Assembly: GCA_023205875.1 (NCBI GenBank)
Contig: CP060770.1
Coordinates: forward strand, 246,501-310,500
Direction: 5' to 3'
DNA: 64,000 bases
DNA from: Chloropicon primus
Taxonomy: Eukaryota; Chlorophyta; Chloropicophyceae; Chloropicales; Chloropicaceae
The stretch's first letter is position 1. The number at the start of each line of letters is the position of its first letter. A program made the position numbers and the translations under genes. Shown here in pieces: positions 2,400 through 58,086 of the stretch. The notes under the pieces are model-generated. The model worked only from the letters and a program-made list of their open reading frames with translations, searched no databases and was not told where the DNA came from.

Positions 2400-4410
2400 A
2401 TGGCGGGAAAGAGTTTGCTCTCTGCAATCCTCGCTGCTTCGGAGAGGAAGAGGACGAGGGAGGATGGGAGCGGAGGCCAACGCCGCGAGGGAAGGGTCCA
2501 GCCCTCCTCGATGCTCTCCTCCTCCTTCGGGTCGAGAGCGAAGGGGAGTGAACCCAGAACCAGCGAGGCATCACCATCATCACCATCATCACCAGCACCA
2601 GCACCACCAGCAGGAGGAGGAGGAGGAGGAGGAGGAGGAGGTTGTTTGTGCAAGAAGGATCGTGAGACGTTTTATGGCAGGAGGTGGGAGGATCAGCTTT
2701 GCAAGAAGGGAGTGCCAGGCCACCTGTTTGCCTTCTTTCGATCCTGTTGGGAGTTTCAGAGGGAGGAACTTGGCCAGGTGAGTCACGGACGACGTCGTCG
2801 GGTCGGTAGAGGACTTTGCAGACCTGACGTTCTCTGCTTGTATCGTTCGTTCCAGTCCTCCCCTTTGTCTTCTTCCGTGTTCAGCGATCCCTTCAAGACC
2901 TTCTCGAGGCAGAAGCAAATGTTCCAGTGGGTGGATGGGTTGGGGGCAACGGAGAAGCGGAGCGTGAAGTACTTCACCTTTGAGACCAGCGTGGTGAGAT
3001 CGGCCTCCTCCTCATTCTCGTCGTCGCAGGAGCACAGGAGGACGAAGAGGGTATTCCTGGCAACGACTTTGAGGCGGTTCTGGAGGCACTACAGCATTAT
3101 GCCAGCATTGTCTAGGCATCACTACGGTGAGATTATCCTTCGGGCGAAGAGCCTGAATCCCGGGCGAGCTTGTTCTGACGACGTTCTCTCTCTCTCTCTC
3201 TCTCTTCCTGCGCTTCAGAACTCATCAGAGAAGGGGAGCCTTGCTCCATGTATTTCGATTTGGAGTTTGCGGTGAAGCACAACGCCGGCCTCACCGCTCA
3301 GGGGGATCATCTCGTGGACGTCGTCCTGGAGCTAACCGCGCGTGAGCTACTCGAACGCTTCGGTCTCGGGATCGACTTGGGGAAGGACGTGGTCGAGCTG
3401 GATTCCTCGACAGAAACGAAATGGAGCCGGCACTTGATCATCCACTGGTAAGTTTAGAGTCCCTTCCTCGGGAACCCGATCAAATCCTCTCTGCTGTTGC
3501 CTGACTCTGCTCCCGTTGTTGCAGTGGCGGGAACTCTCTGTTGGCTTCCAACGCCCACGCCGGAGCTATAGCTCTGTCGGTGGTGAACCGATTGTTTTCG
3601 AAACTCGAAGAGGATGGTGGCGACAGGTACAGGAGCCTCCTTGTTCGCAATGGCGAGGGCGCGGAGACTCCGCTGATTGATCTGAGCGTCTACTCGAGGA
3701 ACAGGACCTTCAGAATTTTCAAGTCGAGCAAATTCGGGAAGCACGCGGAGCTGCGGTCCACCAGCCGTTTTGTGGGAGGGGATTACCTGAAGGAAGAGGC
3801 TGGCCAGGTAAACGCAGATCAGAAAGACAAGACCTTTTTCCTCAGCAGCCTTGTTTGTGGCCAATGCCCGAAGGAGAAGAAACTCTTGCACTGCGAGGAG
3901 GTTCTTAGGGTAGCCTCAGAATCAAAGCCATTCAATCCAACGAGCCGTTCCAATGCCAGGGCGGGTTGCGCGTCCGCTCCAGCGAGGATCGAGGAGGGCG
4001 ATGGACATTTGGCGAAGTTTCCATTGCTGGCAAGCTTCATCGCGAGGACAATGAGTCCCGATGGCCAGCCCCTGGGAAGGATCCGGTCGCACGTTCACTT
4101 TGTAGAATCCGGGACAATCATTCTGAACCTCGCGACGAATCGGTACTGCTCTCGCATCAAGAGGCAGCACAAGTCCAACGGAGTGTTCCTGGTCGTAGAT
4201 TGCAGCTTGGGTTACTGGTGGCAAAAGTGTTACGACCCGGATTGCAGGAGTTACCGTGGCGACCCCCAGGCGCTTCCTTTGGACGTTCTCGTTGAAGTCT
4301 CCGAAGAGATTCAGCAAGTCGCGGAGGACGAAGACTTTCTGAGAGCGATCGACGAGATCGAGGAGAGGCACTTGCACTGCCAAAACAAACATGTTGTAAG
4401 TAAATATTAA
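2400..4410 (+). CDS. PRIMPOL: PrimPol-type DNA primase-polymerase, four exons
   Basis: Archaeo-eukaryotic primase that reprimes stalled forks and bypasses lesions. Exons 2400-2777, 2856-3126, 3219-3447 and 3525-4410 (introns 78, 92 and 77 bp, all GT-AG) give 587 aa in a consistent frame. Visible motifs: catalytic YFDLEF (D230, E232), the SSTETKWSRHLI block with SxH at 286-288, the LIDLSVYSRNRTFR block with D345, and a zinc-binding set C~501/H~508/C~528/C~533 ending CYDPDC. The acidic C-terminus (EDEDFLRAIDEI) resembles the RPA-binding motif of the human protein. The first exon (Gly-rich, reading frame of ATG 2400) is the least certain part, because an alternative frame and acceptor (about 2884) could also splice. 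The stop lies only 20 bp from the convergent CFAP91 stop. Confidence 0.88.
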
Positions 4411-4430: not shown

Positions 4431-6617
4431 TCAACTGAAACTCAGCGTGAGCTTCAGAGATCCTTCCTCCTCGGGACCCACGTTAACTGCGAGCTTCACT
4501 GGACTTTTTTGTGCTTCCTCGATCGACTCCTGGCTCACCTCCTCTACGAGATTATCCACGAGGTCGTCGATATTGTCTGAGCTCAACTCCTCGATAAGGC
4601 CGTCCACCAGGCTGTCGATGTATTGGCTGTTTTCGTCTGTCTGACCCTCCAGAGGTTCCTCTCCCATCATTTGGTCGGGGCTCTCTTCCGCCAAGTCCGG
4701 GTTGAGAGGGCCGAAGCCAGCTGAGCCTCGGCTCATCATTCCCATGGTGCCCCTGCTCGTCGCCCTGCTTGACGCGTTGGCAGTGGTCGCACGAGAGGTG
4801 CTGCCGCTCGTGCTCGGCGGCGTGTCGTACAAGCCGTTCACCCGATCCATCTCAGCCCACTTGTCTTGCCCCTCGTACAGAAGAACCGTCTGCTGCTTGG
4901 CATCGTGAATGGCCAAGATGTCCAAGAGCTCGGCAAAGTGCACTCCCAAGATGGCATCTTTCTCCACCTCCTCGGGCACGGAGACGATCGCAGGCAAGTC
5001 CTGCTCCTTCTTGGTCTGCAACTCCTCGATGAGGTCCAACCGCCTCTCCTTGCCGCTGTACATCTCGTTCTGGGTCGCCCTGCCCCTCAGGAGCCTCTGA
5101 AGGAGAATGATGGCGTTCTCGCTCGCCACTTGGTTTGGATCCGGAATCTCCACCATCACCACCTCCTCCTTCTCCAGCTGGACCTTCTTCTTCTTCTTGA
5201 CCTGTTCGAGGGCAGACGGCGCGGATGCCTTCTGCTGGTTCGTCGCAGCGAGTGGCTGCGGCCAGCAAGAACCGATGCCCCTCCTGCCGTTGTCCTCCTT
5301 GCTCTTCTCCAAGAGATCCATCACGTGCTCAAGCTGCTTGGTCACCACCTTGGCTGCCTTCTGCCCCAAGTCCCTGTCCTTGTGGCCAGGGATGTCATTG
5401 GCCTTCTCGTTCTGCAACGCCCTGTACTCCTCCGGAGCGAGAGACTCGAAGTTCAGAGTGTTCTGCATGGAAACGAAGTTGGTGATCTCGCGCGGCTGGT
5501 AAGGCACCGGATCGATCGTGGTCTCGTCCATCACGGCATCGGCGGCCTTGCCCTCCCTCGTGAGGGGGGCGTAGACCTTGCTGCCGTAGTTGGCGTACTC
5601 CTCTGCCCTCGTGGGCTTCTCTGGCTTGAATGCGGAGAACTGCCTCTTCTTCTCCAGCTTCCTCATCGTCTTGATTCGCCTCTTCTGGATGTCAGCGAGC
5701 AGGGACTGGTTGTCCGCGATCTTCTGCCTCTCCAGCTTCTCCAGCCTCTTCTTCGTCTCGGCCTCCAGCCTCCTCTCCCTCTTCAGCAGCTGCTGCTCCA
5801 TCTTGTCCAGCCTCTCGTCCTGGACGATCTTGATCTCATTCTCGCGGTACGCCCACTCCTTGGACTCCCACTCGTCCAGCATGCGCTTCCTGACGTGAAT
5901 CTTGGATTGGTCCGACAATGGAGGCAAGCTCGCCTCGAAAGCACGCTTCTCTCTCATTTTCTCGATCTTCTGCACCTCGTACAAGCCCACCGGAAGCTGA
6001 AGCTTCTCGTCCGTGCCGTACTTGAAGTCCTTGAGGGTGAGCACCTCAGGCATGCCATTCAGATGGAACTTGTCGTCCAGCTTCTGCTGCTTCAGGGACA
6101 TGTCCTTGGGCAACACGTAGTCCGGCTCGTAAGGCTGCGTCTGCGTCTCCATCTCACGGTAGTCCGACTGCGTGCCGAACGTCCGGGACAACTTGGGCAG
6201 GCCCACAGGCTTCACCTCGTTGTCTGGAATGGGGTCCTGCGGCTCAAGCACGACGTTTGGTGGCGGCTGATCCAGCATCTGGTTGCTTGGTGCATAGAGC
6301 GGCCGCCTGAAGAACATGTACCGGTTGTTCCCACTCACGCGGTCCGCGTTTGACTTGTGTGTTACCTCTGCCAACGTCGCCGAAGCGTTGCCTTGGAACT
6401 CCCGGTTCACCGTGGGTGGCACCTTGTCCACATTGCGAAAGCGAACAGTCTGTGACGGATACGTCGGTATCTCACTGAACAGGTTGCCATACTGAGGCAC
6501 ACGTTCCAGGGTGAACCCGCCTGCTCTTGCCTGGTCGCGGTAAAAGTCTCTCGAGCCCGACACCGTATAGTCCTTGTCGTACAACGAGTCATAAGCTCTC
6601 GTCGGTTGGGACGTCAT
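4431..6617 (-). CDS. CFAP91: CFAP91 (MAATS1/AAT1), radial spoke-associated protein
   Basis: Axonemal protein of the calmodulin- and spoke-associated complex, needed for radial spoke assembly in cilia. The 728 aa product keeps the family landmarks: RTFGTQSDYREMETQTQPY, then a VLTLKDFKYG block, EKMREKRAFEASLPPL, and the KRMLDEWESKEWAYRENEI coiled-coil entry. A long charged coiled coil follows (about residues 250-340). The C-terminal third is acidic and low-complexity. The start is ATG 6617; the open frame extends five codons further to a TTG. No intron is needed, which is remarkable for a gene that is intron-rich in many eukaryotes. It implies that the organism has, or recently had, motile flagella. 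Confidence 0.9.
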   Translation of the reverse strand: MTSQPTRAYDSLYDKDYTVSGSRDFYRDQARAGGFTLERVPQYGNLFSEIPTYPSQTVRFRNVDKVPPTVNREFQGNASATLAEVTHKSNADRVSGNNRYMFFRRPLYAPSNQMLDQPPPNVVLEPQDPIPDNEVKPVGLPKLSRTFGTQSDYREMETQTQPYEPDYVLPKDMSLKQQKLDDKFHLNGMPEVLTLKDFKYGTDEKLQLPVGLYEVQKIEKMREKRAFEASLPPLSDQSKIHVRKRMLDEWESKEWAYRENEIKIVQDERLDKMEQQLLKRERRLEAETKKRLEKLERQKIADNQSLLADIQKRRIKTMRKLEKKRQFSAFKPEKPTRAEEYANYGSKVYAPLTREGKAADAVMDETTIDPVPYQPREITNFVSMQNTLNFESLAPEEYRALQNEKANDIPGHKDRDLGQKAAKVVTKQLEHVMDLLEKSKEDNGRRGIGSCWPQPLAATNQQKASAPSALEQVKKKKKVQLEKEEVVMVEIPDPNQVASENAIILLQRLLRGRATQNEMYSGKERRLDLIEELQTKKEQDLPAIVSVPEEVEKDAILGVHFAELLDILAIHDAKQQTVLLYEGQDKWAEMDRVNGLYDTPPSTSGSTSRATTANASSRATSRGTMGMMSRGSAGFGPLNPDLAEESPDQMMGEEPLEGQTDENSQYIDSLVDGLIEELSSDNIDDLVDNLVEEVSQESIEEAQKSPVKLAVNVGPEEEGSLKLTLSFS

Positions 6618-7740
6618 CTTGATGTTACCCAATGGGGCAAGGAACTGGTGAGTTAAGAGAAGCTCTGCCTCCTCGGTAGGTCAACAACCTCTTCTGCTTC
6701 ACCAAGGTCCTTGGTGGCCACGAAGCCTCTGCTGTATCCTTATGGCCCCTCTCTCCACTCTCTCCCTCTCCACTCTCTCTCTCTCTCTCTCTTGGGCCGG
6801 CTCACCGAAGCCAATGGGTAATGAGGAGGGGACTCGTTCCAACGCCGGTCAACACCTTCCGCTTCCCTTGGCTCCTGCCTTGCACCCTATGCTCCTCCTC
6901 TCTCCACCCTGGCTCAAGGACTCTAATACCTTGGAGATGGAATCTTTCCAAGAATGCCGGGACCAAATCACAAGAGTGAGGGGTCTATGGAAAGGTACCG
7001 AGTTGCTCTACAATCTTGCGCAATCTTTTTGCGGTATCACTGCGTCTTTCCTCGTCAAAGGTGTCGTCCAAAGTGACCCCTTTGGCCCTCCGCCGGTGGC
7101 CTCGATCTCCCTAGAGTCAAATGAATTTTTGGTGAATTTCTCGAACGCGAGAAATCGGCACAAAAAAAACGCGGAAATGTTGAAGACACACTGGAAAATC
7201 TACTCTGGAAATCTTCGAAAAGAAACAAAAAAAAAAGGGAAAACGAAGGAGGAACCATTTAATGCGGGATTTCTACTGTGGGGCCCCCAAAATTGAAATT
7301 TTGACCGTAGCGTTCGATTATAGTGTTAACACGTGTACACTCGTTCTCCATTTTTGAGAGAGAGAGAGTGAGAGTGGCTGAGGGCTAGAGAGGTTTGAAG
7401 ACAAGTCGGCGCCTTTTCAAGGGTTTCTGGTCGACAAGAGGGAGGAGGAAACCGCATTGTTCGATAGATCATCTTCTTCTCTTTTGAATGAGCCCCTCCT
7501 GAACGATTTTGGCTCTCGGACGGCTCGGCAAAAGTTGGTTGAAGGCATTGTTTCGTCTTGGCGAGTGAGGAGGCTTCAGAGGGAAGTCGGCGACGTCAAG
7601 GGAAGAGGTCGATATCGTGAACAACGGCATCAGAGAGATCATCTCACGATCTTTCGATTGATCGTTTCCTCGTTCGATTTGGCTTCGTACTCGATCCGCT
7701 GGAGTGTGATGATCAGCGAGTGAGCGCCAGCGTGGTCGCC
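6618..7740. promoter_or_regulatory. Divergent flank between CFAP91 and XPB
   Basis: About 1.1 kb with CT-rich tracts (6755-6792), an A/T-richer stretch around 7130-7330 and a GAGAGAGAG run near 7357. An open frame at 6742-7296 has no recognisable content and I do not call it a gene. The CTTTCGATTGA element described separately lies at the XPB side. Confidence 0.45.
7641..7687 (+). promoter_or_regulatory. Recurrent CTTTCGATTGA element upstream of XPB
   Basis: The sequence has CTCACGATCTTTCGATTGA followed by CCTCGTTCGATTTGG. It sits 54-100 bp before the XPB ATG and in the same orientation. It matches elements before other genes in this window. Function is unknown; a core-promoter or transcription-factor site is the simplest reading. 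Confidence 0.5.
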
Positions 7741-14278: not shown

Positions 14279-15910
14279 ATGGCTGTCTTCTTCAGAGCTG
14301 GTTTCAACGCCGTGAGGAGGAAGGGGAGCCTCCTGGGTTGGAGCGGCCCTGGTCACGTCCAGCCATGCTTGTTTGGGTTTCACAGAAGTTTCAGCCGCGA
14401 TGCCGATGCTTCGGACGTCGTAGGAAACGCGGATGCTTACGACTATGACCTGCCAGAGGACCTAATTGCTCAGAAGCCGATCACTTGGCTCGACACCGAC
14501 CGGGCCGAGGTTCGACGCAGGGACGCTTCGAGGCTGCTGTGCGTGGACGTCACTGACGAGGGGAGTCATCCAATTCAGTTCCTGAGGCAATGCAAGTTCA
14601 CTGACGTGGCCTCGTTCTTGCCCAAAGGAAGCTTGCTTGTCGCGAACAACACAAAAGTTGTCCACGCCAGACTGCAGATGAGAAAGCGCACGACTGGGGG
14701 AGCGGTGGAGCTGCTGGTGGTCTCCCCCGCGGAGGGGTCGTGCGAATCGGGCCTGAGCTCCGGTCCAGCAGAGGCATCTGCGACGTGGAAGTGCATGGTG
14801 AAGGGAAAGAATGTGAATGAGGGCACTGTTTTGATCAAGCAGCACAGCTCTGGAGTGGTTCTGAGTGCGACCATTCTGAAGAGGAGTGAGGAGAGCAGCA
14901 AGTTTGCGGACGTTGAATTCAATTGGTCGGTGGAGGGCTCCTCCGATTCGAGTGGAAGGAAGTTTGGGGACGTCCTTGAGGCCTTGGGCTCGATCCCCTT
15001 GCCGCCGTACATGAAGAGAGCGGCGGAGACTCGGGACGCGGAATCGTATCAGACGATATACGCCGGAGTGCCGGGAAGTGTCGCTGCACCAACCGCAGGT
15101 CTTCACTTCACGGAGGACCTCGTGGGGAAGCTTGAGAGGTCCAGGAGCATCTGCTTGGAGAAAGTCACTTTGCACACCGGCCCTGGGACATTTGTGCCGC
15201 TGCAGTCGAGCAAAGTCCAGGACCACCATATGCACACAGAAACATTCTCCGTCACCAGAGAAGCTCTGGCCAACGTGTGCGAGTACTTGAGGGAGGGCAA
15301 AGACGGGGCGAAGAACCTCATTGCAGTCGGAACGACGACAGTCCGGACCCTGGAAACGCTGTACTGGCTGGGTCTGCGAAGGATGCTGCGAGAACCGGGG
15401 GGGAAGCCGATGGATGATGCCACACCGCTTGATCAGCGCGATGATGAGGGGAAGTCAAAGGTCTTAACTTTTAGCCTGGACCAATGGGAACCCTACGACG
15501 TGGTTCGAGACGCTTGCGGCCAGGATTGGAGCAAGCTGCCCGATGCCTGGGCTTGCTACCAGAACCTTTTGGAGGAGTTGGACGACCAAGGAAAGGACGG
15601 GGTTTTGGGCCAGACATCCTTGCTGATCATGCCGGGCTACAGGTTCCGGGTCTGCGACCAGCTCTTCACCAACTTTCATGCGCCGAAGACGACTCTGATG
15701 CTTCTCGTTTCGGCCTTTGCCTCGTCCTCGTGTGGCACACAAAACGACCTCGGCTTGCTCGACAGGCAAGGGAGGCAGAAAGTCCTCCATGCTTACGAGC
15801 AAGCAGTGAAGCACCGGTTTCGATTCCTCAGTTACGGCGATGCTTGTTTTTTCGCCAGGTTCAAAGACCTCCCATCACCCATGTTTGAGCAAGCCACAAG
15901 TTTGCTGTAA
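14279..15910 (+). CDS. queA: QueA: S-adenosylmethionine:tRNA ribosyltransferase-isomerase, organelle-targeted
   Basis: QueA transfers and isomerises the ribosyl part of SAM onto preQ1 in tRNA, making epoxyqueuosine, the penultimate step of bacterial queuosine synthesis. The 543 aa product shows family blocks: YDLPEDLIAQKPI, LVANNTKVVHARL, VAAPTAGLHFTEDL, HTGPGTFVPL, AVGTTTVRTLETL, and LIMPGYRFRVCDQLFTNFHA. A long insert before the last block (LDQWEPYDVV... region) and the ending RFRFLSYGDACFF recall the longer QueA type I associate with Bacteroidetes; that is from memory. The N-terminus (FRAGFNAVRRKG ... FHRSFSRD) looks like a mitochondrial or plastid presequence. QueA is unusual in eukaryotes. 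It converges, 80 bp apart, with a queuosine-precursor transporter gene. Confidence 0.93.
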   Translation: MAVFFRAGFNAVRRKGSLLGWSGPGHVQPCLFGFHRSFSRDADASDVVGNADAYDYDLPEDLIAQKPITWLDTDRAEVRRRDASRLLCVDVTDEGSHPIQFLRQCKFTDVASFLPKGSLLVANNTKVVHARLQMRKRTTGGAVELLVVSPAEGSCESGLSSGPAEASATWKCMVKGKNVNEGTVLIKQHSSGVVLSATILKRSEESSKFADVEFNWSVEGSSDSSGRKFGDVLEALGSIPLPPYMKRAAETRDAESYQTIYAGVPGSVAAPTAGLHFTEDLVGKLERSRSICLEKVTLHTGPGTFVPLQSSKVQDHHMHTETFSVTREALANVCEYLREGKDGAKNLIAVGTTTVRTLETLYWLGLRRMLREPGGKPMDDATPLDQRDDEGKSKVLTFSLDQWEPYDVVRDACGQDWSKLPDAWACYQNLLEELDDQGKDGVLGQTSLLIMPGYRFRVCDQLFTNFHAPKTTLMLLVSAFASSSCGTQNDLGLLDRQGRQKVLHAYEQAVKHRFRFLSYGDACFFARFKDLPSPMFEQATSLL

Positions 15911-15990
15911 AGCCACGCAACCTTCCCACACAAAACCATCTGATTATATTATATATTATTATATTCTACACTGCTGTACAACAAACAAAC

Positions 15991-16809
15991 TCAAACCTTT
16001 CCCTTGCGGCTCCTCTGGACGAGAGCTCGGAAGGGCAAGAGGGATGCCAAGGCCACTGCAATTTTGATGGCGTAGTCCCCAGTTGCGAGCGTGGCCCAGT
16101 GAGGCATACTCGCGTCGCCATAAAAAGCCAGGAACTGTTTCATCCGGCAAGGCAGGAGCGTCGCGGTTAGCAAAGAATCGTGGTATCGAGGACTTGCAGG
16201 GTGTGCTGCGCTTGGCACTTACCGTGAATAAATAGCTATCGACGCAAGAGCTGATGCTCGTGCTGACCAGCGGAGCCTTCCACCATTCCTTGTCCCTTAA
16301 TTTGCTGAATATGTAAACGTCAAGAAGCTGGGAGAGCAGGAAGGAAGTCCCAGAAGCTGCTGCGATGCGCACTGGACTCAACAGCAGTGAGGCAGATACT
16401 CCCGCGCCGAATCCAAAGTAGACCACTTGACGCGCGCGATCCGCACCGTAGAGTCTGTTCGTAACGTCTGTGACGAGGAAAGCAACCGGGTAAGTGAGCG
16501 ATCCGACGGTGAGCCAATCCGACAACGGGAATTGCGCGAGGTAATTGCTTGCCACGACACTGACGACCATCGCACCCGTGGGAAACACGGGAAGGTCGGG
16601 CAGGCGAGGTCCCTCCCCCTCGACGGCGGCCTCTTGTCCATCCACCTGCTCGTTCTCCTTGGTCTTGCCACTGAAGCAGACTCCGTGGCCACTTCTCGTG
16701 CTGTAACAACTCGTGCTGTAACAAGACCGTCCTCGATTGAGATCAGGAGAGTTGGCCCCGAGCAAGCGCCTCCGAACAGCAACCACGCCCCCTCGACTCG
16801 CCGTCACCA

Positions 16810-16841
<32 letters not shown>

Positions 16842-17074
16842 TCGGTCGACGCCACTCTCGACCATGAAGCGGAGGAGGCAACGGAAGTGTGCTGATGCCT
16901 CAATCGGGGTTCACATGCCGCAGCTGCTGCTGCTCTTTCAACTCCTCCTCCGCCGTTGTGGAGGCACAGCAGCCGGTGAGCTGGTAAAGACTTGTCCCCT
17001 TGAAGGGATGAAAGCCAAACTCCTGGAGAGCATCGAGTCAAGAAGGCGACTCCTCTTGACAGGAATTCCGCCAT
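15991..17074 (-). CDS. YhhQ/VUT-family queuosine precursor transporter, two exons
   Basis: Member of the VUT/DUF165 (COG1738) family; YhhQ imports preQ0/preQ1 in bacteria. Exons 17074-16223 and 16134-15991 join over an 88 bp GTAAGT...AACAG intron in phase 0, giving 331 aa. After a Ser/Ala/Arg-rich leader of about 155 residues, the family core is clear: AMVVSVVASNYLAQFP, LTYPVAFLVTDVTNRLYG, GTSFLLSQLLDVYIFSKLR, WWKAPLVSTSISSCVDSYLF, then TGDYAIKIAVALASLLPFR. Five or six membrane segments are expected. The short spacing between the third and fourth segments resembles alphaproteobacterial homologues, in my memory. The leader suggests an organellar inner membrane. It is convergent with QueA, which supports a joint role in Q synthesis. 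Confidence 0.87.
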
Positions 17075-18277: not shown

Positions 18278-20008
18278 ATGGCATCATCATCCAGTGTGGT
18301 GATCCATGGGCTGAAGCAGCGAGGCCTTCGAGTGAGGAGGAGGCCCGCAGTGGAGTCGAAGAAGGTTGTGTGGACGAGTTCCAGTGCCGCCAGAGCCTTC
18401 GGTTCCAAGTCTGAGTTCGGTTTCCCTGACTTGGAGAAGGCAAGAAAGCTGGCACAGGATGCCTTTCAAACGATTATCGTGGACAGCGACGACCCCATCG
18501 CTGGGGCCAAGAGAGTGGCCCAGGCTCTGCAAGCTGGGGCCTCTGTCTTGGGCGAGGCCATTGAGTCCGGAGAGTCCGAAGCTTTGATAAAGGACGCAAC
18601 GGACGCGTTCCGGCAAGCCGTCGCGGAGATTGAGCAACAACAGGACCCCGCATCGCCGACGACTGCGTTGATGTCAAGCTCGGAAGAGTCGCTGAAGAGG
18701 TCAGCAAAGTTGTTGAGAAAGTTTTTCGAGAAGATGGGAGCAGCTTACGTCAAGCTCGGCCAATTCATAGCGTCATCGCCGACTTTGTTCCCAAAAGTCA
18801 TCGTGGACGAGTTTCAAGAGTGCTTGGACTCGGTACCTCCGCTGAGCTACGACGAGGAGATTTACAAGATCATCCAGCAAGAGTTGGGCGGCGAGTCAAG
18901 GGTGAGGGAGGTATTCACGAGAATCGACAAGGCCCCGTTGGCAAGCGCGTCGATTGCGCAGGTGCACAGGGGCACCTTGAGATCGACGGGGGAGAGCGTG
19001 GTCCTGAAAGTCTGCAAACCTGACGTGGCGAAGTCCCTCCGGACGGACTTGGATGCCGTGTACCTTGCTTGCAGGGCGTTCGAGCTCTTTGATCCAACCC
19101 TCGAGGAGAGGGTTGGCCTCTCAAGCATCATTCAGGACGCCAGGGACTCAATATTGGCGGAGACCAACTTGGAGCAGGAAGCGAAGAACATGCAGGTGTT
19201 CAGAGAATTTTTGAGCGCAAGTTCAGGGGCGGGTGCCTTTCGGGATGTTTACGTGCCAAAAGTGTACAAGCAGTACAGCACGAGGAAGGTCCTCGTCATG
19301 GAAGAGCTCCGGGGCGTCTCCTTGTCGGATTACCTTGAAGGGGATGCCGGCTACAAGAGAATGGCGAGTTCCATGGGCACGGAGGGGCTTATCATCGAGG
19401 CGTTGAACGCGTGGATTGCTTCCGTGGGCATGTGCGAGTCCTTCCATGCAGATGTCCACGCCGGCAACCTCTTTGTCCTCAGCGACGGAAGGCTGGCCTT
19501 CATTGACTTCGGCTCGGTGGGTAGGATCTCTCCAAAGACGAAGAGGTCCTTGGAGAACTTGGCGTACTGCCTCCCAAGGGGAGACTGGAGGGGAGCCGCG
19601 AGTGCTCTGGTGGGGATGGGGGCCATCATGGGAACCGAGGCGGAGACTAGCGCTGTGATCGACCCCCTGGCAAGGGACCTGGAGTACATGACCGACAGGG
19701 TGGACAGGTTGGTGCAAGATATGATGGTCATGGAAGTCAACGTCACCACGGCCTCGATTGGGGCTCTCTCTGGTGACATTGACCCGAGCTCCATGCCTCC
19801 GCCACAGCTGAACTCTTTGGACATCGCCGAGAGGATCAACAGGCTTGTTCTTGACGTGGTCGACATTGCTGAGAAGAGAGGTTTGAGGTTCCCAAGGGAA
19901 TTCGCTTTGCTGATCAAGCAAATGCTTTACTTCGACAGGTTTGTTCAAGAGCTGGCGCCCGAGCTCGACGTGCTGACCGACGACAGAGTCGACAAGACTC
20001 TGACGTGA
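18278..20008 (+). CDS. ABC1/UbiB-family atypical kinase (ABC1K), probably organellar
   Basis: Atypical protein-kinase-like ATPase of the ABC1/ADCK/UbiB family, which supports quinone and isoprenoid-lipid metabolism in plastids and mitochondria. The 576 aa product shows the KxGQ motif (YVKLGQFIASSPTLFP), the Ala-rich loop replacing the Gly loop (APLASASIAQVHRG), the VVLKVCKP lysine, and the catalytic region FHADVHAGNLFVL with LAFIDFGSVGRI. The Ser/Arg-rich first about 45 residues look like a transit peptide. The ATG follows a 5' region with a CTTTC element. I cannot tell which plant ABC1K subgroup it belongs to. Confidence 0.9.
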   Translation: MASSSSVVIHGLKQRGLRVRRRPAVESKKVVWTSSSAARAFGSKSEFGFPDLEKARKLAQDAFQTIIVDSDDPIAGAKRVAQALQAGASVLGEAIESGESEALIKDATDAFRQAVAEIEQQQDPASPTTALMSSSEESLKRSAKLLRKFFEKMGAAYVKLGQFIASSPTLFPKVIVDEFQECLDSVPPLSYDEEIYKIIQQELGGESRVREVFTRIDKAPLASASIAQVHRGTLRSTGESVVLKVCKPDVAKSLRTDLDAVYLACRAFELFDPTLEERVGLSSIIQDARDSILAETNLEQEAKNMQVFREFLSASSGAGAFRDVYVPKVYKQYSTRKVLVMEELRGVSLSDYLEGDAGYKRMASSMGTEGLIIEALNAWIASVGMCESFHADVHAGNLFVLSDGRLAFIDFGSVGRISPKTKRSLENLAYCLPRGDWRGAASALVGMGAIMGTEAETSAVIDPLARDLEYMTDRVDRLVQDMMVMEVNVTTASIGALSGDIDPSSMPPPQLNSLDIAERINRLVLDVVDIAEKRGLRFPREFALLIKQMLYFDRFVQELAPELDVLTDDRVDKTLT

Positions 20009-31267: not shown

Positions 31268-32315
31268 GCCGTGCTTCGCTTCACCGGTGCGGTGACTTCA
31301 ATCGGAACACGGCACAAGAAGCAGAAAAACATTCCTCATGACGGTGACGAACTCAATCCCTTGCTCAAGCAACAACGCTGTCCATGGGAGTTGGTGACCT
31401 GATTGATGCTCCCTTGCGTAGTGTCTCGCCCCGCTAACCGATGCCAGCGTCTGTGGAACGGTCGTGAGACAATCTACCGCTTCAGAATGGGCCACTCTCC
31501 CGAGATGTCGAGAACCAAAAGAGATGCGACGCCAAACAAACTTTGTTGGAGATGATGCTGGTGCTGGTGCTGATTGACGATGTTCCTCAAGTATCGTCGC
31601 GAATCCGAGGCAAAACCCAAGCAATGCCGGGTGGAATCGAAAGACCGAGAGATGATCTACCACTTGATCGTGCTCTCTCTCCCTCTGCTGCGCTCCCCTT
31701 TCTTCCAGAGGCGCCCAAACCCAAGCCAATCGCCGCCTCGCTCGCAAGGCTCCAATGGTACACTCAGGAAACGCCTCCCTCGCTTCCCACCTTCAGATTT
31801 AAAAAACGTCTCCTGAAGAATATTGAGGTCTACATAACGATGTACCAAGATTTCCACAAAAGTTCAGATTACGAAACGTCTCGCGAAGAAATTGAGAAGA
31901 TTTCCGAATTGACCTTTGACCTGAAAATTGAAAATCCGTTGAGGGGGTTCACACCATCGAGGCCCGAGGCTGCCAAAGGGATCAGGTGAGTTGGCGCAGG
32001 TGTATCGAGCGAGCCAAGGCGTTCCCGAGCAAGTCACTCCCTTGATTCGAAAGTTCGCATCTTTGTCTTTCGTTTGACCCATCTTTGGGTCGATAGGGTC
32101 CCTTGGTTTGTTGTGACAAGTGTCCTTTATTGACTCTTTTCGTCTCGTGTGTTTGGTACCTTTGCCTCTTGGTAAGCGTGGTTCACCAGAGGCCCAGCCA
32201 GAGGAAGGGAGAGGGGACCGTGGATTCTCTGAAAGCCATTCGTTTGCTGATGGTTTCCATCGCCTTTTAGGGTTTTTTTCTTTATTGGCAGCAGTACCAG
32301 TCAGTGGACCCAACT
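31268..32315. promoter_or_regulatory. Flank before CFAP44 with a probable 5' UTR intron and a telo-box
   Basis: About 1 kb between divergent genes. Near 31985 lies a good donor (ATCAG then GTGAGT) and at 32291 an acceptor (TTTATTGGCAG), so a 306 bp 5' UTR intron is plausible. Just before the acceptor is TTTTAGGGTTTTTTT (32265-32279), a reverse-orientation telo-box and T-run. Two imperfect copies of TTCAGATT..AAACGTCTC lie at 31792 and 31863. An open frame at 31543-31989 does not join CFAP44 in frame and is not called. Confidence 0.4.
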
Positions 32316-35300
32316 ATGGCAGAAGAAGGGGAGGAGGTGCCTCCACCAGAGGCAGCAAAGGAGGAGGAGGAAGTTGTGGGCGGGGAGGAGGAACAAGCGT
32401 CGGCGGACGCCGTGGAGGGGGCAGGAGAGGCACCAACTGAGGAGGAGCTTCAGCTTCAAAGGGCTCAGTCTGCGGTGTCTGCCCAACAGGAGGCAGAGGA
32501 GCCACAGGAGGAGCCACAGGAGGCTGCTCCAGCGGAAGCAGAAGCAGCAGAAGAAGCGGCTGCTGCCGCTCCAGCAGAAGCAGCAGCGCAAGGAAAGGAA
32601 GAAGTAGTCGCTGCCGCTCCAGCAGGAGCAGCAGAAGAAGAAGCTGCTGCTGAAGCTGCGGGTGACGAGTCTGCGGGTGACGCGGACTCTGGCTCCCCTG
32701 CGGAGAAGGAGGCCGACCTCGCGGACGAGGAAGCCGCTGCGATCAAAATTCAGGCGGCTGCCCGGTCCAAGGCGACGCGCAAGAAGCTGGCCAAGGAGAA
32801 GCAGGAGAAGGAGGAGGCCCTGTCGCAGTCGCACTGGGCCGAGTCTGGGCTGCCGGACGACAGGTACCTCGCAGACGGGTACTATAAGCGTAGCCAGTTC
32901 GACATCGATGCATCCATTGCCGGCAGCAACGTTGCTGGCCTTTCCCTCAAGCAGGGCCTCGGTTTCGAGTCGACCAAGAGGCACAACACCATGCTGGTGG
33001 AGGACGACGTTCTCCTCTACTCTACTGGAAAGTTCTTGGTGCTCCACAAGTACAGCTTGGGCACGAGGCTCTACCTGCCTAGCTTGGACGGAGGTGGCAT
33101 CGGAAGCTTCGATGTCCACCCATCGCGCAAGTACATCTGCGTCTGCGAGAGGTTGGAGCCGGCCCTGATCGCGACGGGGAGGACGCCAAACGTTTACATT
33201 TACGAGTACCCGAGCTTGAGGATCTACAAGGTGCTGAAGAGCGGCACGGAGAGGGCGTACTGCGCGTGCAAGTTCAACCAGCTGGACCAGGGAGCGACCT
33301 TGGCCACGGTGGGCTGCTACCCTGACTTCCTCCTTTCGGTGTGGAACTGGAAGGAGGAGAAGATGATCCTGAGGTCCAAGGCTTTCAGTCAGGACATTTA
33401 CAGCGTCAACTTCTCACCAAAGTTCGAGGGGCAGCTGACCACCAGCGGGACGGGTCACATTAGGTTCTGGAAGATGGCCGGCACGTTCACCGGACTCAAG
33501 CTGCAGGGAGCGATTGGCAAGTTCGGAAGCGTCGAAATCTCAGACGTAGCCGCCTTTGCCGAGCTCCCGAATGGCAGCGTGGCCTGCGGTACGGAGAATG
33601 GTGACATCTTGGTCTGGGACGGAGGCTTCATCAAGACGTTCTTCACTCTGCCGAACGGCGAGCCTTGCCACAAGGATATGATCGAGGTGGCCCAGATTTG
33701 CAAGGCCAAGGACAACAGCCAGTACTTGATGACGGGAGGAATGGACGGGTACCTCAAGTTCTGGGACTTGAAACTGCTAATGGAGCTCGAGTCGGACGAC
33801 GACGCGGGAATCAATTGCAGCATCGCCCCAGCCAAGCAGGCTCTCATCGAGTGTCCTGGAAGGCCAGGCAAGAAGGTGGCCATCAAGACTGTGATCGAGA
33901 AGGGGAAGGACAGGTACATCATCCAGGACCACAACGGCGCCATCATCGAGTTGGCTGCCAGGAAACCAAAAGACGCCTCAAGCGATGCGTCGGAGGGCAC
34001 ACTTGAGCTCTCCGTTTCATCGTCGAAGGCGATCATGAAGTGCCACAGCGGTAACATCGTCGGCCTCATGCCTTCCCCCGTGTCTCACCACATGGTCACC
34101 GCGGGCGAGGACGGCTCCGTGAGGGTGTACAACTATACCCAGGACACCACCAAGTCCTTGTTCGAGATTTCCTTCCCGGTTCCTGCCACGGCGCTGACGG
34201 GCGTGCCCAAGTCAAGCGATCCTTCGGGCCGAATCGTCATCGTTGGTTTCGAAGATGGCGTTGTCAGAGTCCTACTGAGGTGCCTCGACGGCTTCAAGAC
34301 GTTGTACGTCGGCAAACCGCACAAGGACGCCGTCACTTCGGCTTGCGTGTCCCCAGATGGTTCCTACTGCGTGACTGGCTCCAAGGACAAGACACTTTTC
34401 TTCTTCTCCACCAAGATACCTTTGAGCGACGCCAACGGTGCGGGTGCCATGGGGATGGTAGAGGAAGACGGCAGCGACCAAGCCAAGTCAGAGGACGGGA
34501 CTGGACCAGAGGGAGCGGGAACGGCCACAAATGACTTGGAATTCAAGCCCCTTGCGTACATTCCCACTCCGGACGAGGTGACCACCGTGAGTTGGCACGC
34601 CGAGTCTCAAGTCTTGCTCGTCGGATGCACCAATGGTGACATCCTTGAAGTGGAGCGCCCTCCGCTGGACGTGGATACCTTCAAGACGTTCGAGACGCAG
34701 TGCAAGACGAGGTTTTACGACTTCCAGAAGCCCAAGCTGAAGAAGCCCAAGGAGAAGGAGGAGGAGGAGGGCAAGGAGGAGAAGAAGGGCGAGGGCGATG
34801 CCGACAAGGCGGAAGGAGCCGATGATGGCGAACAGAAGGAGGAGGAAGAAGAGGAGGAGGAGGAAGAGGACGAGACATCGGGTTACCCTGTAAGGGAAAT
34901 CATGTACGTCACCGATAAGGATGGCAATGCGAGCCACAACTTCTACGCTACCTTTGGAGGGAAAGCGGCCGGCCACATGTTCTTGTGCAACGTTGATGAG
35001 GACGAGGTTCTTGAAGCCATTCCCACGCACGACATGCCAATGACCCACCTTTCGTACTCGCACAAGTCCAAGTATTTGGTGTCCGGATCCACGAACGGTG
35101 TCGTGCGCATCTGCTCCCTGGATAGCGAGAAGACAAAGGATTCCAAGGATGAGAGCGGAAAGCTCAGCGATTTTGTTGAGGTGGGCATGCACGGCGGGAA
35201 CGTGTCCTGCGTTGCGACCTCTTTTGACGAATCGGTCATCATCACCGCGGCTTCGGATGGCTCCTGTTTCATCGTGAAGAACTTCCTCGAGGAGGAAACC

Positions 35301-38129
35301 GTGGAGTCCCGAATCAAGATTCCAAAGGCTCCATCGGTGCCGTTGCCCACTATGCTGGCAGAGGAACGCACTCAAACCTCCGAGGAGATTGTCGGCAAGG
35401 AGCACTACAGCATCGAAGAGGCGAAGAAGAAGACTGACAGGGATAAGAAACTGAGCAACGCTGAGGCCAAGAAGGCTGCCTTGCGCGACAAGGTCGCAGA
35501 AATTCGTAACGCTTTCCAGGCCTTGCTGAATGCAAACAAAAGCAAGGAGGATGTGAAGCAGCTGAACAGAGAGGAGTTCCTCATCGACATGAACCTGCAA
35601 GAGATGCTGGACAAGAACCTGGCCAGCGCTTTGAACGAAGTTGAGCTAGAGGAAGCGTATGAAAGCGAAAAGGGTCGCATTGGCCGCGAAAAGCTTCAGC
35701 AGTGGTTCTTCGACAAGGTCGAAGTGGAGCGCATCGAGCTGCATGCTTTCAAGTCGGAGCTCAGCACGTCGACATTCCGAACGACCAAGCTGCCTCCCGC
35801 CGTCCAAGAGGAGCTGGACGCCGCCAGGAAAGAGGCCCAGACAAAGGAGACTGAGGAGGAGGCCAAGGACGGCGCTGCGATGGAGAATGCTGCCGCCGTG
35901 GAGGCGCCGAAGGCAGGTGCAGGGGACAGGAGGGCCTCAAGAACCACGCAGAGCGAGGTGCAGGACAGCAAGGCTGCGAAGAAGGAAGACACGCACGCAA
36001 GGGAGGTCGAAAAGAAGCTCAACAAGCAAGAAATGAGAAGAGAGCAGCGAAGGAAGAGGGACAAGGAATGGCAAGTCTTCAACAAGACGAAGCCTGACGA
36101 GAAGTTTGAGAACCCAGAGGATGTTGCGGCCATTCAGACGGCTGTCGACAACATGGGGGATTTCAAGCTGAAGAGTGATCCGAATTATATCGCCCCTGAG
36201 GAGGAGCGAACCAATGTGGACAAGAAGAGGAGGCAGCTCCATTTGCTCGATGCGAAGATCCACGGCATCAAGATGAGCTTTAACAACAGACTCCTCTCGC
36301 TCCGTGACTTGAAGAAGGATCTCATCGCTCAGATTGACGAAAGCAACAAGAAGCTCACCACTCTTCGAAAAGACTTGAAGCAGTCGGAGGAGCTGTTTAC
36401 CCCCAAGATGCTGCCCACCGAAATGCCGGAGCTGAGGTACGAGGTCAGCAACGAGGAGGTAGCGGAGTTCCTCAACAAGGCGAAGGAATCGGAGAAGAAA
36501 GAGGGTTTGGGTGGAGGCGGCTTTGGTGGGTTTGGCGGGGCGGCCAAGGCAGCGGTGGCTGCAAAGAAGGGGCCTAGCATCGGAACTGCAGCAAAGGTTC
36601 ACAGTTTTGCGAAGAAGATCAGAAGAAGCAGTTTGGCTGGTGAGAGGCGCTACAGTGCCATTGCTGAGTTCCGTGCGTCCGACGTGGAGATCAAGGAGAT
36701 GCTTCTGCAGAAGAGGATGCTTCAGCACGAGATCGAAAACATCGAGGATCAGATCAAGAACAGCATTGTTGACTTCGACAAGAACCTCGACAAGCTGAGG
36801 CAGGACAAGTTCACGCTTCAGGCTGATCTCAAGATGGCCGAAATCAGGAGGATCATCCTGGTCAAAGAGCTCGCGATTCTGAAAGAGTGCGAGAAGAGGG
36901 ACAACTTGCTGATCAACAAGATGGACACCAAGGGGGGGGAGAAGAAGGACATTATTGACAAGATCAAGTCTTGCACCGAGAAGATCGAAGAGAAGGAGGG
37001 CGAGATTCACAAGGTTCTGGAGAAGAAGAACAAGATCTTGTCAGAGTTCGACTCTCTGGTTGAGGATGGGTCCACCTTCAGGGAGCAGCTTCAGAAGATC
37101 TTCTTGAGGAAAATCAAGAGGCACAAGAAGAATGCAAAGAGGACCGAGGACTTCGACTCGGAGGAGGAGTCCGACAGCGAGGAGGAAGACGACGACGATG
37201 ATGACTGGGATGAGGACGAGGCCGAGGAGATTTGCCCACCTGGTTGCGACCAGGCCCTCTACGAGAAGGTCTGCGACCTTCGTGAGAAGAGGCTGGACCA
37301 GGAAGAGATCGACGTGGAGCTGAAGAAGCAGCTGGAAACCTTTAACAAGGAAAGGGAATCCATGAAGAAGAAGCAGAACCTCATCAACCAATCGGTGAAG
37401 GCCATTAACGAGGAGATCATCAGCTTCCAGAAGGAGAAGCAGGCAAAGTTGAACGAGATTCTTCTCGTGGTTACTTTGAAGATGCACCAGATCGAGTATC
37501 TCGTGGAATCTAAACTGCCACTGAACCTCACTGACGCTCTCGTCTTCCCAAAGACGACGTTGAGGAGGCTCGAGGAGCGTGTCGGCGAATTGATAGAGGA
37601 GAAGGCACAGCTGAAGCAGGAGCAGAAGGAGTTGCGGAAGCAGCACAAACAGATGCTTCGTGACAGCAAGGTGAAGGAGGGACGAATCAATGAGCTTCAG
37701 TCCAAGGCAAGAGATATCCAGCTCTTGAAGTTCGGACAGTTGATTGATTTGGACTTGTTGGACAAGATGGGTGTGAACAAAACCACCGAAGACCTCAAGG
37801 CGAATTTGCTAAGGCAGGAGAAGCAGTTCATCCACGACTTGGCTCAGTGGAACAAGAGGATCGAGGGGGCGAAGAGAGAGTTGGCCGATTTCACGCAAGA
37901 GAATACCAACTACTTGAACATGCTCGCCGATTTGACTTCCTCCCAGAGGCAGATTGATCTCAAGTTGCACTCGACCCAGAATGAACTTTTCACCAACCCC
38001 GCGGCTCAGAGGAAGAAGGAGATTGCTGCCAGAGACCACCTCATCGAAGTCATTAACGTGCAGGCCCAGCAGATCGACGCTCTCAAGCACGAGATCAATT
38101 TGTTGAGACACAAGTCGGGCAAGCTTTAA
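32316..38129 (+). CDS. CFAP44: CFAP44 (FAP44), inner dynein tether protein
   Basis: Axonemal WD-repeat protein of the tether/tether-head complex that links the I1/f inner-arm dynein to the doublet. The 1937 aa single exon has an Ala/Glu-rich acidic N-terminus, an IQ motif at about residues 143-155 (IKIQAAARSKATRKK), two blocks of WD40 repeats (about 200-1000) with the family signatures GGGIGSFDVHPSR, IYEYPSLRIYKVL, LRSKAFSQDIYSVNF, SGTGHIRFWKMAGTFTGLKL, then a long coiled coil with an acidic SEEEDDDDD stretch. Length matches animal CFAP44. The first true ATG is 32316; four codons upstream are open without ATG. An IQ motif suggests calmodulin binding. Confidence 0.95.
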   Translation: MAEEGEEVPPPEAAKEEEEVVGGEEEQASADAVEGAGEAPTEEELQLQRAQSAVSAQQEAEEPQEEPQEAAPAEAEAAEEAAAAAPAEAAAQGKEEVVAAAPAGAAEEEAAAEAAGDESAGDADSGSPAEKEADLADEEAAAIKIQAAARSKATRKKLAKEKQEKEEALSQSHWAESGLPDDRYLADGYYKRSQFDIDASIAGSNVAGLSLKQGLGFESTKRHNTMLVEDDVLLYSTGKFLVLHKYSLGTRLYLPSLDGGGIGSFDVHPSRKYICVCERLEPALIATGRTPNVYIYEYPSLRIYKVLKSGTERAYCACKFNQLDQGATLATVGCYPDFLLSVWNWKEEKMILRSKAFSQDIYSVNFSPKFEGQLTTSGTGHIRFWKMAGTFTGLKLQGAIGKFGSVEISDVAAFAELPNGSVACGTENGDILVWDGGFIKTFFTLPNGEPCHKDMIEVAQICKAKDNSQYLMTGGMDGYLKFWDLKLLMELESDDDAGINCSIAPAKQALIECPGRPGKKVAIKTVIEKGKDRYIIQDHNGAIIELAARKPKDASSDASEGTLELSVSSSKAIMKCHSGNIVGLMPSPVSHHMVTAGEDGSVRVYNYTQDTTKSLFEISFPVPATALTGVPKSSDPSGRIVIVGFEDGVVRVLLRCLDGFKTLYVGKPHKDAVTSACVSPDGSYCVTGSKDKTLFFFSTKIPLSDANGAGAMGMVEEDGSDQAKSEDGTGPEGAGTATNDLEFKPLAYIPTPDEVTTVSWHAESQVLLVGCTNGDILEVERPPLDVDTFKTFETQCKTRFYDFQKPKLKKPKEKEEEEGKEEKKGEGDADKAEGADDGEQKEEEEEEEEEEDETSGYPVREIMYVTDKDGNASHNFYATFGGKAAGHMFLCNVDEDEVLEAIPTHDMPMTHLSYSHKSKYLVSGSTNGVVRICSLDSEKTKDSKDESGKLSDFVEVGMHGGNVSCVATSFDESVIITAASDGSCFIVKNFLEEETVESRIKIPKAPSVPLPTMLAEERTQTSEEIVGKEHYSIEEAKKKTDRDKKLSNAEAKKAALRDKVAEIRNAFQALLNANKSKEDVKQLNREEFLIDMNLQEMLDKNLASALNEVELEEAYESEKGRIGREKLQQWFFDKVEVERIELHAFKSELSTSTFRTTKLPPAVQEELDAARKEAQTKETEEEAKDGAAMENAAAVEAPKAGAGDRRASRTTQSEVQDSKAAKKEDTHAREVEKKLNKQEMRREQRRKRDKEWQVFNKTKPDEKFENPEDVAAIQTAVDNMGDFKLKSDPNYIAPEEERTNVDKKRRQLHLLDAKIHGIKMSFNNRLLSLRDLKKDLIAQIDESNKKLTTLRKDLKQSEELFTPKMLPTEMPELRYEVSNEEVAEFLNKAKESEKKEGLGGGGFGGFGGAAKAAVAAKKGPSIGTAAKVHSFAKKIRRSSLAGERRYSAIAEFRASDVEIKEMLLQKRMLQHEIENIEDQIKNSIVDFDKNLDKLRQDKFTLQADLKMAEIRRIILVKELAILKECEKRDNLLINKMDTKGGEKKDIIDKIKSCTEKIEEKEGEIHKVLEKKNKILSEFDSLVEDGSTFREQLQKIFLRKIKRHKKNAKRTEDFDSEEESDSEEEDDDDDDWDEDEAEEICPPGCDQALYEKVCDLREKRLDQEEIDVELKKQLETFNKERESMKKKQNLINQSVKAINEEIISFQKEKQAKLNEILLVVTLKMHQIEYLVESKLPLNLTDALVFPKTTLRRLEERVGELIEEKAQLKQEQKELRKQHKQMLRDSKVKEGRINELQSKARDIQLLKFGQLIDLDLLDKMGVNKTTEDLKANLLRQEKQFIHDLAQWNKRIEGAKRELADFTQENTNYLNMLADLTSSQRQIDLKLHSTQNELFTNPAAQRKKEIAARDHLIEVINVQAQQIDALKHEINLLRHKSGKL

Positions 38130-58013: not shown

Positions 58014-58086
58014 CGCGGACGCCGGGATTCGAACCCGGGTCTCCCGCGTGACAGGCGGGGATACTGACCGACTATACTACATCCAC
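58014..58086 (-). tRNA. trnD-GUC: tRNA-Asp (anticodon GUC)
   Basis: 73 nt on the minus strand. Acceptor stem GTGGATG pairs with CGTCCGC (two G-U pairs), discriminator G. The anticodon stem is CCCGC/GCGGG with loop CTGTCAC, anticodon GTC. The T arm is CCGGG TTCGAAT CCCGG, a perfect B box, and the A box is TAGTATAGTCGGTC. It is intronless and has no encoded CCA, so it is a nuclear-type gene. It closely resembles tRNA-Asp of other eukaryotes. Confidence 0.96.

Follow-up and report, generated by a model that had tools for sequence, protein, structure and literature searches.

The closest described system to the locus analysed here comes from the same alga. Turmel et al. 2025 reported a QueA/YhhQ gene pair on chromosome 17 of Chloropicon primus (17p79870 for QueA and 17p79880 for YhhQ), a bacterial-like TGT (BL-TGT) on chromosome 8 and a QueG on chromosome 17 (PMC12301720). 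All four proteins were predicted to be mitochondrial, and the authors proposed that preQ1 is imported into mitochondria and then matured in the bacterial manner. They traced the BL-TGTs to the Chlamydia lineage, citing Manna and Harman 2016, and also discussed the BL-TGT pocket (PMC12301720). This was the only paper that we found on Chloropicon and queuosine. The gene pair and the pathway are already known, and the present finding is an independent rediscovery. A working pathway would be an exception to the textbook view that eukaryotes can use queuine only. Since this exception has already been proposed, the value left lies in testing, above all in testing whether a TGT with a queuine-like pocket accepts preQ1. 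What our analysis adds is small: it gives donor signals for both QueA and YhhQ, and it did not find preQ1-making genes. The main text of PMC12301720 contains neither 'alphaproteobacter' nor 'bacteroid' (0 occurrences), and its supplementary Fig. S5 may show the donor signals.

We analysed a window of 64,000 nucleotides (C17:246501-310500) and searched the whole genome of 17,584,162 bases in 20 contigs. The gene pair is confirmed in the window. QueA and the YhhQ/QPTR transporter gene, both bacteria-derived, are convergent, present and intact, and have bacterial relatives. A reading made from the sequence alone had described them as lying end to end, 80 bp apart, which is what the coordinates give (Table 1).

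Table 1. Queuosine genes of C. primus and neighbouring features. Positions are those of the window unless a contig is named.
Feature	Position	Strand	Remarks
QueA gene	14279..15910	+	543 aa; ATG at 14279, stop at 15910; no intron
QueA N-terminal extension	14279-14428	+	residues 1 to about 50
QueA insert	15362..15610 (approximate)	+	after TTTVRTLETL, before QTSLLIMPGYRF
Spacer between both stop codons	15911..15990		80 bp
YhhQ/QPTR (VUT family) gene	15991..17074	-	331 aa after splicing; exon 1 17074-16223, exon 2 16134-15991
Transporter intron	16135..16222	-	88 nt, GT-AG, predicted
Transporter N-terminal extension	16607..17074	-	about 155 aa; Ser and Ala runs
BL-TGT gene	C8:467299-468486		with N-terminal extension
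QueG gene	C17:191458 onwards		outside the window; distance to QueA about 69 kb
QueG intron	C17:192061-192150		90 nt, GT-AG, predicted
Herpes_UL52-type primase domain	3505-4407	+	44 bits
CFAP91 gene	4434-6680	-
ABC1-type atypical kinase gene	18278-20008	+	head to head with the transporter gene
CFAP43-like gene	32271-38126	+	WD40 and coiled-coil protein
tRNA-Asp gene	58014-58086	-	nuclear; GTC anticodon (Q34 target)

The window also holds genes with other functions. The transporter gene is adjoined by an ABC1-type atypical kinase gene, and the primase domain belongs to what we take to be a PrimPol-like protein. A nuclear tRNA-Asp gene, whose anticodon is a target of Q34 modification, is probably there by coincidence. 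CFAP91 and the CFAP43-like protein are cilia proteins. Vegetative cells have no flagella, and the near-full flagellar gene set was already noted in PMC6731263. The genome is given as 17.4 Mb on 20 chromosomes in PMC12301720, and the figure of 20 chromosomes also appears in PMC6731263. The former also reports that both C. primus strains carry chromosome 17 as three copies, which may raise the dosage of its Q genes.

The QueA protein scored far over the gathering score of PF02547 (306.2 bits against 25, E 3.4e-91), and its relatives in the PDB are 1yy3, 1vky and 1wdi. It stayed under the NCBIfam equivalog cut-offs, narrowly for NF001140 (311.5 of 324 bits) and TIGR00113 (257.5 of 267.45 bits) and by far for NF002398 (174.8 of 588 bits). 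The alignments to these profiles are broken into two or three segments, so the long insert may explain the misses. QueA keeps 51 of the 53 columns that are invariant in 28 bacterial QueAs, and the two changes are V to T and S to T. The algal QueA would carry out the SAM-dependent conversion of preQ1-tRNA.

The open frame of the transporter runs from 17074 to 15959 on the reverse strand. The coding sequence most likely ends after the splice, at 15991, since removal of the intron gives a protein with a C-terminal end like that of its bacterial relatives. The unspliced frame exceeded the cut-offs of PF02592 (76.6 bits against 27.2, E 3.5e-21) and TIGR00697 (68.5 bits against 50.95) and stayed under that of the YhhQ preQ0/preQ1 equivalog NF008406 (77.5 of 252 bits). 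Among the columns invariant in 23 hand-picked bacterial YhhQs the protein keeps 24/29, and among those invariant in 20 alphaproteobacterial ones 35/40. Both proteins mostly keep their conserved residues; a lack of conserved active residues is what the sequence-only reading had named as counting against its proposal.

A genome-wide search gave three TGT-family genes, namely QTRT1 on C5, QTRT2 on C6 and the BL-TGT on C8. The BL-TGT has a 19-column insertion after SGGFQVFSLSN when compared to E. coli TGT, and keeps DSGGFQ and the CxCxxC..H zinc motif. There is one QueG, which aligns to 5d08 with query residues 65-374 (E 1.4e-49) and keeps both 4Fe-4S cysteine motifs, CGSCTKCQVACP and, after splicing, GCDICQEVCP. 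One Qng1 lies on C13. The contigs of QTRT1, QTRT2, BL-TGT, QNG1, QueA, QueG and the transporter carry the same numbers as the chromosomes given for these genes in PMC12301720 (Table 3), and three of the four bacterial-type Q genes are on C17. The search for a bacterial-type Tgt and for QueG or QueH with leaders, which the earlier reading had proposed, gave the TGT with an N-terminal extension and QueG, and no match for QueH. QueF, QueC and QueD/PTPS likewise had no match in the genome in a six-frame, exon-by-exon search, which could miss a gene split by many introns. In 14 control genomes the same families were matched in 8 (QueF), 12 (QueC), 9 (QueD/PTPS) and 2 (QueH) cases. The preQ1 precursor should therefore come from outside, by salvage and not by synthesis. 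Imported preQ0 would lack a known QueF to reduce it and is therefore improbable as the cargo. QueG needs cobalamin. A domain of B12-dependent methionine synthase in the genome makes it probable that the alga uses this cofactor.

We consider it probable that the gene pair serves to finish queuosine in the mitochondrion, by a pathway whose localisation, cargo and reaction in vivo are deduced. YhhQ would move cytosolic preQ1, or a base related to it, into the mitochondrion, and the BL-TGT would swap guanine 34 of the mitochondrial GUN-anticodon tRNAs for the imported base. QueA would then add epoxycyclopentanediol from SAM, and QueG, a cobalamin and Fe-S enzyme, would reduce the product to queuosine. 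From its gene company, YhhQ is expected to carry preQ0/preQ1 rather than queuine only; a QueA is held by 14/15 alphaproteobacterial genomes, hand-picked from 48 with close YhhQ relatives. The sequence-only reading had suggested import of preQ0 or preQ1 into an organelle followed by bacterial-style maturation. The organellar preQ1-to-Q interpretation is supported by sequence, as the preQ1 pathway is the published reading (PMC12301720) and a TGT and QueG are present; preQ0 is made unlikely by the lack of a QueF match, and the TGT pocket is not of the classic preQ1 kind.

This pocket reads GGSLG(RD) in the BL-TGT and GGLAVG(E) in E. coli TGT, and is one residue shorter in the alga. The BL-TGT also has Leu (DEL) where E. 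coli TGT has the pocket Cys (DEC). QTRT1 has GGLAGGE and QTRT2 MGLGLGE, so the preQ1-type pocket GGLAVG occurs in none of the three TGT-family genes of the genome. Queuine users have GG[LS][AS]G, and the pocket Val is said to bar queuine, according to PMC11570991. GGSLG is no exact match to this pattern, yet it lacks the Val. That rule places the BL-TGT nearer to the queuine users than to the preQ1 users. If it takes queuine only, QueA and QueG would be left without a substrate.

The pocket also argues for direct queuine salvage, in which YhhQ would import queuine and the BL-TGT insert it as in Chlamydia trachomatis, with QueA and QueG as leftovers or in a minor role. The TGT and QPTR of Chlamydia use queuine (PMC11570991), and Turmel et al. 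suggest that BL-TGTs can use it, above all in YhhQ-less strains (PMC12301720). QueA and QueG are listed in all five Chloropicon strains (PMC12301720), which together with the clean conservation of QueA (51/53) argues for ongoing selection on preQ1-tRNA maturation, and we regard direct queuine salvage as unlikely. An intact QueA and QueG are sensible only if preQ1-tRNA is formed, so either the BL-TGT accepts preQ1 or the two enzymes are relics. We favour the former, because of the same five strains and the same conservation.

A second alternative has QueA and YhhQ working in the plastid, either instead of the mitochondrion or alongside it. The earlier reading had ascribed targeting leaders to both genes. 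N-terminal extensions do exist, and the bacterial rows of the alignment show nothing that corresponds to the transporter leader. Residue counts over the first 45 positions give only a modest positive net charge, +4 in QueA and +2 in YhhQ. Mitochondrial presequences do not usually look like the transporter leader, with its 155 aa and its Ser run. Turmel et al. stand against a plastid or dual location (PMC12301720), where the mitochondrial predictions are also given, and we consider such a location improbable. Bacterial contamination or chance resemblance, suggested by transporter relatives that are bacterial only, here and in PMC12301720, is ruled out for practical purposes by the predicted spliceosomal intron of the transporter and by the eukaryotic genes of the same window (among them XPB helicase, CFAP91, coatomer beta and dynamin). 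PMC12301720 also lists the pair for two strains of C. primus and the two genes for C. roscoffensis RCC2335.

We keep the mitochondrial pathway as the probable explanation. Against it we counted the modestly basic leaders, the GGSLG/DEL pocket, the NCBIfam misses of QueA, the two of three C. roscoffensis strains in which QueA and QueG are kept without YhhQ (PMC12301720), and the statement of Turmel et al. that, to their knowledge, Q in organelle tRNAs has been shown in no alga (PMC12301720).

The sequence-only reading had taken QueA for the longer Bacteroidetes type and the transporter for an alphaproteobacterial type, of separate bacterial origins, and the comparisons fit this. The insert of QueA carries QWEPYD, a motif common to Bacteroidota QueA (QWxPY in 5/5). 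The stretch from TTTVRTLETL to IMPGYRF has 105 residues in the alga, 77-88 in the 5/5 Bacteroidota, 60 in Collinsella, which lacks QWxPY, and 29-36 in the other 22 of the 28 bacterial QueAs. When the insert was removed, the algal QueA joined the Bacteroidota with support of 100/99 in a tree of 29 rows, two of whose Bacteroidota rows are of unusual composition. The five Bacteroidota QueAs compared, out of eight Bacteroidota-named records, are all Bacteroidales from plasmid-collection records. The best Bacteroidota bit score was 255, and the other listed phyla reached at most 240. Identity to Bacteroidota was 32-35%, while Enterobacter and Listeria QueA reached as much as 37.9% over shorter alignments, so the case for a Bacteroidota-type QueA, which the sequences fit, rests on the bit score, the insert and the tree, with a sampling that leaves out Chlorobiota, Spirochaetota, Chlamydiota and the red algae, named as closest relatives by Turmel et al. 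(PMC12301720). A search of viral contigs with QueA gave 3 pattern matches, none of them a relative.

For YhhQ, a pattern scan matched 98 stretches, of which 48 were confirmed. Judged by their record titles, all 48 were alphaproteobacterial, the best with 60% identity; since the scan favours sequences with exact peptides of the query, the lack of other groups is weak evidence. Among 23 matches in plasmid records, the seven best were alphaproteobacterial. In a tree of 24 rows, hand-picked from 54, the alga groups with 20 alphaproteobacterial rows, and a 100/100 branch separates this group from the 3 gammaproteobacterial rows, with a long algal branch (1.77) and an unsettled bootstrap. The tree gives the alga no resolved place among the alphaproteobacteria. 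A 55-row tree disagrees, with the alga outside all rows but Fusobacterium and the gammaproteobacteria inside Rhodobacterales. We set it aside because of the Fusobacterium branch of 9.6 changes per column and a long-branch warning. The transporter thus fits an alphaproteobacterial type, and the data do not discriminate between descent from the mitochondrial ancestor and a later transfer. The Bacteroidota-like insert is missing in 14/14 QueAs of the alphaproteobacterial YhhQ genomes, so the algal QueA and YhhQ do not look like the gift of one such donor. QueG and BL-TGT matched mixed bacteria in the plasmid collection (15 of 44 and 15 of 69 records listed, identity at most 41%), and among these listed matches there was no clear donor for either.

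Taken further, and only tentatively, a preQ1-to-queuosine line in the mitochondrion may combine parts of three or more bacterial origins, namely a YhhQ of alphaproteobacterial type, a QueA of Bacteroidota type and a TGT of chlamydial type, with a BL-TGT that takes preQ1 besides or instead of queuine although its pocket is nearer to that of queuine users. If this is true, the specificity of the TGT here is not predicted by the pocket rule.

Compared to the mitochondrial Q salvage described for Chloropicon (PMC12301720), our locus is the same linked pair with the same partner genes in the same species, and there is no difference in the finding. Bacterial preQ1 salvage (YhhQ/QPTR, bTGT, QueA and QueG) draws on the same families of enzymes and transporter. 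The alga differs in a TGT pocket closer to that of queuine users and in that no QueF was found, and its genes are nuclear-encoded, have N-terminal extensions and, in the transporter and QueG, predicted introns. With the queuine salvage of C. trachomatis (TGT and QPTR) the alga shares a TGT without the pocket Val. Unlike the alga, C. trachomatis is without QueA and QueG/H (PMC12301720), and the algal YhhQ resembles the alphaproteobacterial ones.
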